Positions 51,428 to 63,678 of a stretch of 64,000 bases of DNA are shown here, in pieces. The notes under the pieces are model-generated. The model searched no databases. It was not told where the DNA came from and saw only the letters and a program-made list of their open reading frames with translations. Every line of letters begins with the position of its first letter. Position 1 is the stretch's first letter. Position numbers and translations under genes: made by a program. The stretch is from Methylacidimicrobium sp. AP8. Its GTDB lineage: Bacteria > Verrucomicrobiota > Verrucomicrobiia > Methylacidiphilales > Methylacidiphilaceae. The stretch is taken from NCBI RefSeq assembly GCF_903064525.1, contig NZ_LR797830.1, forward strand, positions 1 through 64,000. The letters are read 5' to 3'.

Positions 51428-53553
51428 ATCGATTGGCGACCGCCAGAAGCCCTTACCTCCGGCAGCACGCCGGGAACCCGGTCGACTGGTATCCATGGGG
51501 GAGCGAGGCCTTCGCCAAGGCGAAGGCCGAAGGGAAGCCGATCTTTCTCTCCGTCGGCTATGCCACCTGCCACTGGTGCCATGTGATGGCCCACGAATCC
51601 TTCGAGGACGCGGAGGTCGCCGAAAGGCTCAATCGGGCCTTCGTGCCGGTCAAGGTCGATCGCGAGGAGCGGCCCGACGTGGACCAGGCGTACATGACCT
51701 TCGTCCAGGCGACCACGGGGCAGGGGGGCTGGCCGATGAGCGTCTGGCTCACCCCGGACCTCGAGCCGTTTTACGGAGGGACCTACTTTCCGAAGAACGA
51801 CCGCTGGGGACTGCCGGGGTTCCTGTCCGTTCTCGACCGGATTGCGGATCTCTGGTCCCGCCATCGGGAGGAGCTTGTGCGCCGGGGAGAGGAGGTCGCA
51901 GCGCGGCTCCGGGAGGCCTTGGCGGCGGGCGGCTCCGGGCCGGTGGATGGAGAGCGGGCGGTGGAGCGCGCCTTGGAGGAGTTTTCGCGGACGTTTGATT
52001 CCGAATGGGGCGGCTTCGGGCCCAAGCCCAAGTTTCCCCGGCCGGCCGCCCTCCACTTCCTTTTGCGTTACGCAGCGGCCCGTGCCGGCCGGCCGGAGGG
52101 CAGACGCGCCTGGTCGATGGCCGAGCGGACGTTGGAGATGATGGCCCGCGGGGGCATTCGCGACCGGATCGGGGGGGGCTTTCACCGGTATTCGGTGGAC
52201 CGTTTCTGGCAAGTGCCCCATTTCGAGAAGATGCTCTACGACCAGGCGCAGCTGGCTTGCTCCTACTTGGAGTGTTTTTGCGGCAACGGGGATCCGCGCT
52301 TCGCGTCGGTCGTCCGGGAGATTCTCGACTATCTGTTGCGCGACCTCGAGCTCCCCGACGGAGGATTCGCCTCCGCGGAGGATGCGGACAGCGTCCCTCC
52401 GGAAGGGGGGCCGGCTCGGGAAGGTGCCTTTTATCTTTGGACCGGAACGGAGATTGCGGAGCTGCTCGATCCGGCGGAAGCGCGCCTAGCCGGCGACCTG
52501 TGGGGTGTGCGGCCCGAAGGAAACATCCCGGCGGATGCGGATCCGCACCGCGAGCTGGCCGGAAAAAACATTCTCTTCGAGCGGGAGCCGATCGAGGAGG
52601 TCGGGCAGCGGCTCGGTCTGTCCCCAGAGGAAGCGGAGCGGAAAGCGCGGGCGGCGGCCGCCAAGCTCTTTGCCGCTCGCGAGCGGCGGCCCCGGCCTAC
52701 GAAGGATGACAAGGTCGTGCTCGGGTGGAACGCCCTTGCCGTTTCGGCTCTGGCCCGAGCAGGGCTATGCCTGGATGAGGAGCGCTACCAGGTCGCTGCG
52801 GAGCGGACGGCACGGTTTCTCCTCAGCCAGCTCTTCGATGCCGCGACCGGAAAGCTCTTCCGTCTCTATCGGGAGGGGCGGGGCGAGGTCGAGGCCTTTG
52901 CGGGGGATTATGCGATGCTGGTGCAAGCGCTCCTCGATCTTTTCGAGCTGACGCAGGAGGCCGAGTGGGTCGAAAGGGCATGCTTTTTTCAAGATCGGAT
53001 GGAAGCCCTGTTCCGGGATCCCGCATCGGGCGGCTACTGGACGAGCGAAGAGAAGAGAAGCGAGATTCCGTTCCGGATTCGGGAGGAGCACGACGGAGCC
53101 GAGCCCGCCGCCATTTCGCTGGCGGCGGCGAACCTACTGCGCTTTTCCGCCCTGCTGCCCGAAGAAAGGTGGCCGGGACGGCTCGACGAACTCTTCCGGG
53201 CCGAAGCCGGCCTGCTCACCCAGGCGCCTGGGTCCCTCCCGCAGCTTCTGGCGGCCTATCTCGACTCGACCCGGCCTCCGGTATCGGTGGTCATCGTCGG
53301 CGCTCGCAGCGATCCGCGAACCCGAGCCCTTCTGGCGTCCGGAGCCGGCATTCCCACCTCCCGCAGGCTTCTTCTGGCCGTCGAGCCGGGAAGGCGCTAC
53401 CCTTTCCTGGGGGAAAAAGAGGAGTTTTATCTCTCCCTCTCTCTGCGGGCGGGGGCTCCGGTCGCCTATCTCTGCCGATCCTTTTCCTGTTCGGAGCCGA
53501 TTTCCGATCCCGATGCTCTCCGGGAGCGCTTACGGGAGGCTCCGGCCCTGTAG
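51424..53553 (+). CDS. YyaL/SSP411-type thioredoxin-domain protein
   Basis: A 709-residue protein of the YyaL (spermatogenesis-associated protein 20-like) family. The N-terminal thioredoxin-like domain has [38 protein letters not shown] (CxxC near residue 53) and [14 protein letters not shown]; the rest is an (alpha/alpha)-barrel resembling N-acylglucosamine 2-epimerase and GH76-like folds ([54 protein letters not shown]). Function in bacteria is not established. It overlaps the hydrolase gene upstream and its end overlaps the convergent pyrD by 24 bp. Confidence 0.9.
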
Positions 53554-54549
53554 GAGTCCGCGGCCGATCTCGCGGGCGAAGAGCGGCCCCCGAAAGACAA
53601 AGCCCGTATAGGCTTCGAGCAGGCACGCCCCTGCGTCGAGCTTTTCGCGCGCATCACCTGCCTCGAAGATTCCGCCGACGGCCACGACGGGCAGTCGGCC
53701 CCCGCTCTCCCGAACCAGAAACCGGATTACCTCGGTGGATCGCTTGGCCAACGGTCTGCCGCTCAGCCCGCCGATAAGCCCCCGAGGACCCGGGGCCGGC
53801 AGGGTGTTCGTCGCGACCAGGCCGTCGCAGGGCGCCGACAGCACCGCTTCCAGGACGCCTCCGAGCTCCTTTTCTCCCAGATCCGGAGCGATCTTCACCA
53901 GAACGGGCTTGGCGGGCGGAGGGGTGTTGGCGGCGGCCACCGCCTCCAGCAGCATCCGCAGATGGGACTCCTGCTGGAGGGAGCGAAGCCCCGGGGTGTT
54001 CGGCGAGCTCAGGTTAAGAACGAAAAAGTCGCCGTAGGGACGGAGGAGGGCGAAGGCCCGCGCGTAGTCGGCGGCGGCCTGATCGAGCTCCGTCCGCCGC
54101 GATTTTCCGACGTTAATCCCCACCGGAAAGCTCGGCCATCTCCCGGCGTTGCGAAGTCCGGCGAGCCGGCGGGCGACTCGCTCCGCGCCCTCGCTTGGGA
54201 ATCCGAGCCGGTTCCAGAGCGCCTCCGAGCGGGAAAGGCGCCGGAGGCGGGGCGGAGGGTTCGGTTTTTGCGGATCTGGGGTGACCGTGCCGATCTCGCA
54301 GAAACCGAAGCCCAATGCTTCCCATGCCCCGAGGGCCACACCGTTCTTGTCGAACCCGGCTGCGAGTCCGAGCGGGGTTGAGAAACGAAGCCCCCAGACC
54401 GTCCGCTCCAGACCGGAGGGGAGCGGAGAGAGGGCCCGCTGCAGCATCGATTGCACCCGGACATCGGCGCAGAAAGCCAGTGCGAGATGGTGGGCTCTTT
54501 CGGGTGGAAGAAGAAAGAGGAGGCGGCGCAGGAGCGAGCTGTAGAGCAT
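53530..54549 (-). CDS. pyrD: Dihydroorotate dehydrogenase (quinone), class 2
   Basis: Membrane-associated flavoprotein of pyrimidine synthesis that passes electrons to quinone. The 339 residues have the class 2 N-terminal helix ([21 protein letters not shown]), [71 protein letters not shown] (catalytic Ser), [27 protein letters not shown] and [31 protein letters not shown]. The ATG at 54549 gives the usual start; the frame extends 31 codons upstream without family resemblance. It diverges from the RNA ligase partner gene. Confidence 0.95.
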
Positions 54550-54668
54550 TCGGACAGTCTCGGGAAGCTCAAGGCCGTTGGCAATCCGCAACCCGTGGAA
54601 GCGGAAATACCAACAAACGGCTGGATCGCCGCCGCCCGGCATCCTAGTCTTGCGCGCTGGTGGGGCCC

Positions 54669-55277
54669 ATGTACCGGTTCGTCCTGGATACGAGCATCTT
54701 CACCAATCCGGACGTCGCCTCCCAGTTCGGAGAGGACGAGGCGGCGGTGGGGGGCTTCCTCGATCTGGCTCGCAAAGTGCCTGCGGACTTCTTCATGCCG
54801 CTCTCCGTCTACGAGGAGCTGCGGAAGATGCGGGACCTCGATCCGCTGATCGGCTACTTCGAGTCGGTGGTGCGGATCCGTTCGCCACGGAGATCGGATC
54901 TGCAGATTCCCGGGGATTTCCTTTACGACTTCATCGATGAGGTCCGGAAACGGATCGACCATGGTCTGCGCATCGCCGAGGAGCACGCCAAGCTGGCGGG
55001 AGCAGCCGCCGAAATGGGACAGCTCCTCCACCAGCTCCGGGAGCGCTACCGGGAAGCTCTGCGGCGGGGAATTCTCGACAGCCGAGGAGACGTCGATGTG
55101 GTTCTTCTCGCCTTCGAAATCGACGGGAGCCTGGTCGCGGCCGACCATGGGTTGCGGAAGTGGGCGGATCGGATCGGGGTCGCCGTGGTCGACGCACGCC
55201 ACTTTCGCGACCTGCTCCGCCATCTAGTCGAAACGAAGGGAGCCGCCGAGGGCGTTGTGGAGAAATCCGGTGGTTGA
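54669..55277 (+). CDS. RNA ligase partner protein, PIN-like (MJ0950 family)
   Basis: The 202-residue product starts MYRFVLDTSIFTNPDVA and matches the PIN-like family described as the partner of archaeal-type RNA ligases. Acidic residues of a PIN nuclease site are visible: Asp in FVLDTS, Glu in SVYEELRKM, and Asp in SRGDVDVVLLA and VAADHGLRKWADRIG. A central helical stretch (EVRKRIDHGLRIAEEHAKLAGAAAEMGQ) is lysine-poor and long. The ATG at 54669 is preferred; a GTG lies three codons up. Its 3' end overlaps the convergent RNA ligase gene by 54 bp. By family it is probably a ribonuclease working with that ligase; this is inference. Confidence 0.88.
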   Translation: MYRFVLDTSIFTNPDVASQFGEDEAAVGGFLDLARKVPADFFMPLSVYEELRKMRDLDPLIGYFESVVRIRSPRRSDLQIPGDFLYDFIDEVRKRIDHGLRIAEEHAKLAGAAAEMGQLLHQLRERYREALRRGILDSRGDVDVVLLAFEIDGSLVAADHGLRKWADRIGVAVVDARHFRDLLRHLVETKGAAEGVVEKSGG

Positions 55278-56318
55278 ACGGTAGAGCTTTTCGAAACGCA
55301 GAACCCAGAATCCCGCTTCTTTTTCGAGCGAGACCATGCGCGTGTCTCCTTCATGGCCGGGGATCCGCGCCATGTTCTCGAGAAGCCGGAGAGCGTTTTC
55401 GCGGTCATGGAAGCGGCAGACGAACGATCCCACACAGCGGCCTCGCCGAGCCGAGCCGATTCGCTCGTGAAGGGCGGAAAGAAAGGCCTCCCCTAGGCGT
55501 CGGTTCCACTCTTCCCGATCGGGCGCTTCGATGTCCTCGAGAAAGAGCGCCAACCGCAAGACCCGTTCCGTGAAATACTCCGGGGGGACATCGAGATAGC
55601 GACGGGACATGGAAGAGATATCCGCCAGCTCGGCGCTGCCCGTCACGTATTTGGCGCGGAATCCTCGAAGAGAATCCTCCTTGAGGACGACTCCTTCCCG
55701 GCCCTCCGCGTCGAGCCGGAGGAGGATATCCCGCAAGGATCCGAGCTCCCCGGCTTCCAGCCGACCGTGGCCGGGCACCTCGGGGAGGCGGAAAGATCGG
55801 GCGATCGCCTGTTTCTCGCGCACCGGGAAAAATCCTTCCGTGCCTTGCTGCATCAGATCGAAGAGGAAGAAGCCGACTCCTTCGGGCACCAGAGGGGAGC
55901 TGCCTTCGACATAAGGGGTCTCGGGCCCGGTCACTTCGCCGCAGAGAATCCATTCCGGATGTGCGGAGAAAACGGCGGGATCGATCAAATCGGCGATCCG
56001 ATCGGTCGTGAACGGGCAGATCAGTCCGCCCCGAGTGGCGGCGTAAAGCGCATCGCCGGCGCGGAAGATACGGACGTTGTAGCCGTCGACCTTCTCTTCT
56101 ACCCAGAATGGGCCGTGAAAGAGGGAACGGATGCCCGCCAGAGTCTGTACCCGCCCGATCTTCGGATAGCCGGGAACGACGACTCCGTCCGCCAGCAGAG
56201 TGCCGCGCGGCCATCCGTGCCAATCATGGAGCAGCCGGGTATACGTCCAATCGCCGAAAGACTCGCGCTTCGCCTTTTTTTCCGCGACGGCCGCATGTAT
56301 CTCGGACTCGGGGATCAT
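55224..56318 (-). CDS. ATP-dependent RNA ligase, Pab1020 (Rnl3) family
   Basis: Nucleotidyltransferase of 364 residues. The adenylation motif I is EEKVDGYNVRIF with Lys at about residue 76; motif III is near FFLFDLM, motif IV EGVVLKED and motif V FRAKYVTGS. The N-terminal SFGDWTYTRLLHDWHGWPRGT and the C-terminal domain with MSRRYLDVPPEYFTERVLRLALFLED match the archaeal Pab1020 group, whose members circularise single-stranded RNA. The ATG at 56318 is the most likely start; the frame is open nine codons further. It is tail-to-tail with the PIN partner gene. In archaea and a few bacteria the two families occur together. The substrate here is unknown. Confidence 0.9.
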   Translation of the reverse strand: MIPESEIHAAVAEKKAKRESFGDWTYTRLLHDWHGWPRGTLLADGVVVPGYPKIGRVQTLAGIRSLFHGPFWVEEKVDGYNVRIFRAGDALYAATRGGLICPFTTDRIADLIDPAVFSAHPEWILCGEVTGPETPYVEGSSPLVPEGVGFFLFDLMQQGTEGFFPVREKQAIARSFRLPEVPGHGRLEAGELGSLRDILLRLDAEGREGVVLKEDSLRGFRAKYVTGSAELADISSMSRRYLDVPPEYFTERVLRLALFLEDIEAPDREEWNRRLGEAFLSALHERIGSARRGRCVGSFVCRFHDRENALRLLENMARIPGHEGDTRMVSLEKEAGFWVLRFEKLYRSTTGFLHNALGGSLRFD

Positions 56319-63520: not shown

Positions 63521-63594
63521 GGGCCCTTAGCTCAGCGGATTAGAGCGTCTGACTACGGATCAGAAGGTCGTAGGTTCAAATCCTACAGGGCCCA
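63521..63594 (+). tRNA. tRNA-Arg (ACG)
   Basis: A 74-nt cloverleaf with acceptor GGGCCCT/AGGGCCC and discriminator A, D-arm GCTCAGCGGATTAGAGC, anticodon loop CTACGGA (anticodon ACG, whose A34 would be deaminated to inosine), and T-loop TTCAAAT. No CCA is encoded. tRNA-Gly follows after 13 bp, probably in one transcript. Confidence 0.95.
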
Positions 63595-63607
63595 GGCCGG
63601 AAACGCT

Positions 63608-63678
63608 GCGGGTGTAGTTCAATGGTAGAACGGCAGCCTTCCAAGCTGCATGCGAGGGTTCGATTCCCTTCACCCGCT
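63608..63678 (+). tRNA. tRNA-Gly (TCC)
   Basis: A 71-nt cloverleaf with acceptor GCGGGTG/CACCCGC and discriminator T, D-loop CAATGGTAGA, anticodon loop CTTCCAA (anticodon TCC), and T-loop TTCGATT. No CCA is encoded. It lies 13 bp after tRNA-Arg. Confidence 0.95.

Follow-up and report, generated by a model that had tools for sequence, protein, structure and literature searches.

HARP (homolog of Aquifex RNase P) and the ATP-dependent RNA ligase Rnl3 co-occur in prokaryotic genomes, often side by side (Seshadri & Gopalan, mBio 2025; PMC12153264). The ligase is present in 89% of HARP genomes, and the two genes are close together in 127 of the 164 bacterial genomes that have both (PMC12153264). 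For archaea, the proposed task of the pair is the maturation and circularisation of C/D box RNAs (PMC12153264). Among individual proteins, the closest described relatives are Aq_880 of Aquifex aeolicus and Hhal2243 of Halorhodospira for HARP, and PAB1020 of Pyrococcus abyssi, Rnl of Methanothermobacter and TK1545 of Thermococcus for the ligase. Some prokaryotes retain a protein-only RNase P as a second enzyme of this type, and the best hint at the reason comes from its ligase partner. The HARP-Rnl3 pair, its co-occurrence and its adjacency are already published (PMC12153264); modestly new here are a conserved convergent overlap in Methylacidiphilaceae with its coding explanation, the independence of the pair from mnmE, and the exclusion of a C/D box role by gene content.

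We analysed a window of 64,000 nucleotides from Methylacidimicrobium sp. AP8, whose genome is a single contig of 2.30 Mb. The Methylacidiphilaceae are acidophilic methanotrophs of the Verrucomicrobia. The window contains the following features:

54669-55277, + strand: HARP (homolog of Aquifex RNase P; PIN_5 nuclease, 'RNA ligase partner protein'), 202 aa
55224-56318, - strand: Rnl3 (Pab1020-family) ATP-dependent RNA ligase, 364 aa
55224-55277, 54 bp: convergent overlap in codon-on-codon register, conserved ligase C-terminus and variable HARP tail

The HARP frame runs from ATG 54669 (alternative GTG 54660) to a stop at 55275-55277, and the ligase frame from ATG 56318 (alternative ATG 56345) to a stop at 55226-55224. 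The initial annotation had described a PIN nuclease and a Pab1020-family ligase lying tail to tail and sharing 54 bp, and both frames were found at these positions. As in the published pairs (PMC12153264), the same two families are adjacent on opposite strands, and the host genome, like most HARP hosts in that study, also carries RNA-based RNase P. Methylacidiphilaceae are not included in the list of main bacterial orders given there. The genes here are convergent with an overlap of 39-54 bp across the family, whereas two haloarchaeal plasmid pairs are instead head to head.

Identity of the two proteins

In profile searches the PIN protein matched TIGR03875 (202.1 bits, cut-off 95.3, 6.7e-60), PF08745 (196.8 bits, cut-off 27, 3.6e-58) and NF003344 (271.5 bits, cut-off 241), and seven PDB sequences named 'RNA-free ribonuclease P' matched it as well, the best at 1.7e-64 and Halorhodospira 7og5 among them. 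These matches identify the PIN protein as HARP, a member of the family of the Aquifex protein-only RNase P; 'RNA ligase partner protein' is the NCBI name of the TIGR03875 family. A single-sequence contig scan with HARP returned close relatives only, with 85-88% identity to Methylacidimicrobium and Methylacidiphilaceae records. D7, D137, D141 and D159 are invariant across the 13 Methylacidiphilaceae members, and R124 and R128 of the spike helix are conserved or invariant in the same relatives. In Aq880, the catalytic aspartates D7, D138, D142 and D161 are essential, and in its spike helix R129 is needed and R125 is also important for pre-tRNA cleavage (PMC8266387). The four aspartates here would correspond to those of Aq880, and R124 and R128 to its R125 and R129, where the equivalence is an ungapped offset of one and Aq880 itself lies outside the alignment. 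Catalytic aspartates and spike-helix arginines are common to HARP here, Aq_880 and Hhal2243; unlike in the latter two, the C-terminal tail of HARP is overprinted on the ligase gene.

Loss of the PIN catalytic acids had been named in the initial annotation as a finding that would speak against its reading; the acids proved intact. That annotation was right about the two families, their co-occurrence and the combination of cutting and joining, and it missed the identity of the nuclease as HARP, with its demonstrated RNase P activity. Because the PIN protein belongs to a family with such activity, the link to tRNA is more specific than one drawn from the proximity of mnmE.

The ligase matched TIGR01209 with 298.4 bits (cut-off 136.9, 6.4e-89) and PF18330, the Pab1020-specific C-terminal domain, with 58 bits (cut-off 25); PF09414 also matched in the profile search. 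Its PDB matches were 3qwu (1.1e-91), 2vug, which is PAB1020 (1.4e-56), and 5d1o (2e-40). The motif EEKVDG, which had been taken as the mark of a Pab1020-family ligase, was confirmed as the KxDG lysine motif at residues 74-79, and further motifs are TRGG at 95, GEVTG at 127, FFLFDL at 150, EGVVLK at 208 and RAKY at 221. The nucleotidyltransferase motifs align with those of 3qwu, 8uce and 2vug, and all core motifs are intact. By these criteria of sequence the ligase is Rnl3, with a full-length match to PAB1020, Methanothermobacter Rnl and TK1545 that extends over the Pab1020 C-terminal domain and every core motif.

These motifs bear on a proposal of PMC12153264 that, under stress, Rnl3 produces 5'-adenylated leaders and HARP takes them off. 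Another Rnl3 is described as a strong adenylator and weak ligator in the part of PMC12153264 that deals with it, which would suit such a decapping pair, but the motifs of the ligase here appear to comprise all that ligation requires, and we regard decapping as improbable.

A conserved convergent overlap

The convergent overlap was found in 13 of 13 Methylacidiphilaceae genomes, always in codon-on-codon register, with one of the 13 ligases interrupted by a contig end. Its length differs by genus, being 54 bp in this genus (seven genomes), 39 bp in a second (five genomes) and 42 bp in a third. Since overlaps of 54, 42 and 39 bp recur in one codon register in all 13 genomes, the overlap is not a chance open frame. 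In this genus the pair is flanked by pyrD and mnmE; the second genus has nadA and a UDP-glucose dehydrogenase gene on either side of it, and the third has cutA and NUDIX genes nearby. The pair has therefore been kept together through rearrangement, and mnmE, which the initial annotation had read as a clue to a tRNA substrate, is ruled out as functional context, because the second and third genus have other neighbours. Overlapping genes are mechanically hard to separate, so linkage within Methylacidiphilaceae is weak evidence for joint function. Upstream of HARP, the genes are packed very tightly (53530-54669): a DUF255 gene (to 53553, + strand) and pyrD (53530-54642, - strand) share a 24 bp convergent overlap, and the start codons of pyrD and HARP are divergent with about 26 bp between them.

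When the residues encoded in the overlap were compared between pairs of this genus's seven genomes, 18 of 336 comparisons showed a difference in the ligase frame, against 109 of 336 in the HARP frame. The order is the opposite in the rest of the two genes, where HARP differs by 8% and the ligase by 23%. Within the overlap, nearly all nucleotide changes hit the first position of HARP codons, where the ligase has its third position. Moreover, Aq880 without its last residues (184-191) keeps substantial activity (PMC8266387). Because the ligase frame is conserved, the HARP frame drifts and the Aq880 tail can be deleted, the overlap is best read as the conserved C-terminus of the ligase, read antisense as a dispensable-looking HARP tail. 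The 54-bp overlap would be a continuation of the HARP reading frame into the ligase gene, at its conserved end.

A strong terminator-like site was not found between the HARP and ligase genes, and overlapping transcripts are therefore possible. This, together with the conservation of the overlap in three genera, would fit the earlier suggestion that the tail-to-tail arrangement couples expression through complementary mRNA 3' ends. Yet the excess of HARP-frame over ligase-frame differences and the concentration of changes at ligase third positions are what ordinary coding constraint predicts, and the two haloarchaeal plasmid pairs, being head to head, have no such arrangement. The suggestion thus found little support, and we consider the coupling very improbable. 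A regulatory device is likewise unsupported given the codon constraint and the plasmid pairs, and the genes are probably not arranged this way for the sake of the overlap.

Distribution and RNA context of the pair

Both genes are present in all 13 Methylacidiphilaceae genomes examined. In a sample of the phylum, both families scored above cut-off in 5 of 145 genomes, all of them Methylacidiphilaceae, and neither did in the remaining 140, two of which gave weak sub-threshold ligase matches. Co-occurrence in the phylum is strong, yet it may reflect a single evolutionary event or acquisition. HARP and Rnl3 appear to be inherited as a unit in this lineage. Occurrence of each gene without the other had been proposed as a test of the pairing, and its outcome is mixed: in the phylum sample the two are together or absent, but HARP occurs alone elsewhere, in about 11% of HARP genomes (PMC12153264) and in Haloferax volcanii, one of our control genomes, which gave a HARP match and no TIGR01209 match. 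Among PLSDB plasmids there are five HARP genes, all haloarchaeal; two of them, in Halocatena and Natrinema, are head to head with an RNA ligase about 100-120 bp away, and for the other three, annotation shows no ligase within 3 kb. A single-sequence query found no viral carriers of HARP.

The fixed presence of the pair also bears on a toxin-antitoxin reading, discussed in PMC12153264, in which HARP would act as a toxin of the VapC kind and the ligase would mend what it damages. Membership of HARP in the VapC-like PIN proteins and the adjacency of the genes suit this, but toxin-antitoxin modules are patchy, unlike a pair found in 13 of 13 genomes, and a Thermococcus ligase knock-out that retains HARP grows normally (PMC12153264). 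We therefore hold this reading to be scarcely credible.

RNase P RNA (RF00010) was detected at 1690658-1691094 of the host genome with 170.8 bits, and RnpA is also present (PF00825, 55 bits). HARP therefore need not be the sole or main RNase P, and replacement of RNase P of the Aquifex type is ruled out by rnpB and rnpA, in contrast to Aquifex itself, which is without RNase P RNA. On our reading, HARP would not be the chief enzyme of tRNA 5' processing in this organism. In four other Methylacidiphilaceae sampled, RF00010 scores were 198-227 bits compared with the 170.8 bits of this genome, whose RNase P RNA may be divergent or length-variant.

Nop56/58 had no match in the host genome, and fibrillarin had one 42-position match only, at 19.4 bits and below the cut-off of 27. 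Because of this, the C/D box RNA circularisation role should not apply in this genome, which, unlike the archaeal HARP-Rnl3 setting, encodes no C/D box machinery; the C/D box role cannot account for bacterial pairs in general. The Rnl3 proteins of Thermococcus and Pyrococcus circularise C/D box sRNAs, a substrate class that this bacterium should not have. Methylacidiphilaceae are a useful test case, with the pair in every genome examined, RNA-based RNase P as well, and the C/D box hypothesis, the leading one in print, excluded by gene content.

Possible joint action on structured RNAs

We tentatively favour, as a reading somewhat short of probable, that HARP and Rnl3 act together, HARP trimming the 5' ends of structured RNAs and Rnl3 sealing or circularising them. 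RNase P-type cleavage leaves 5'-phosphate and 3'-OH ends, as an ATP-dependent RNA ligase needs, so the chemistry would work without end-healing enzymes. In some tRNAs or other structured RNAs with a terminal, acceptor-like stem, HARP would cut at the base of that stem; the 5'-phosphate left behind would then be joined by Rnl3, with ATP, to a nearby 3'-OH, so that the trimmed RNA is circularised or the cut RNA resealed. The specificities of the two enzymes would meet on a stem-closed RNA, which would be trimmed and then sealed. Archaeal Rnl3 favours RNAs with ends paired in a terminal stem, and in Thermococcus the enzyme circularises small RNAs of this kind (PMC9014305). A more specific and unlikely version is that the pair in Methylacidiphilaceae forms a pathway devoted to RNA circularisation that does not depend on C/D box RNAs: HARP would generate the 5' end at a terminal stem, which Rnl3 would then close into a circle. 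If true, bacteria would have a class of small circular RNAs that are made by enzymes.

Alternatively, the two proteins could have independent roles under shared harsh conditions, with HARP a backup RNase P and Rnl3 repairing broken RNA, and no common substrate. The authors of PMC12153264 put this forward, members come from extreme habitats, some genomes have HARP alone, and every single-gene knock-out tested in archaea was viable: neither HARP knock-outs in two archaea (PMC12153264) nor the Rnl3 knock-out in Thermococcus (PMC9014305) had a growth phenotype under standard conditions. However, the genes are neighbours in about 80% of the bacterial genomes that have both (PMC12153264), and they occur in two orientations; this would be difficult to account for unless they share a task or were transferred together, and separate roles seem to us somewhat unlikely.

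Published results on the activity of HARP on pre-tRNA disagree. According to the passage of PMC12153264 that draws on Gossringer 2023, recombinant HARP of the relative M. infernorum reportedly failed in pre-tRNA processing, as did the HARPs of Halorhodospira and two others. The failure of the M. infernorum enzyme counts against joint action, as do the archaeal knock-outs without a growth phenotype and the genomes with HARP alone. Halorhodospira HARP is active on pre-tRNA in PMC8266387, in conflict with that passage.

With respect to joint action on tRNA, introns were rejected as a substrate, since the 46 tRNA matches in the host genome are 71-88 bases long, which leaves no room for an intron in any of them. 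RtcB is encoded separately in this genome. The 3'-CCA is encoded in only 3 of the 30 tRNA genes examined, so CCA encoding is no obstacle to HARP, and it is uninformative on its role. Two tRNA genes lie at 63521-63678 of the window, with 13 bp between them.
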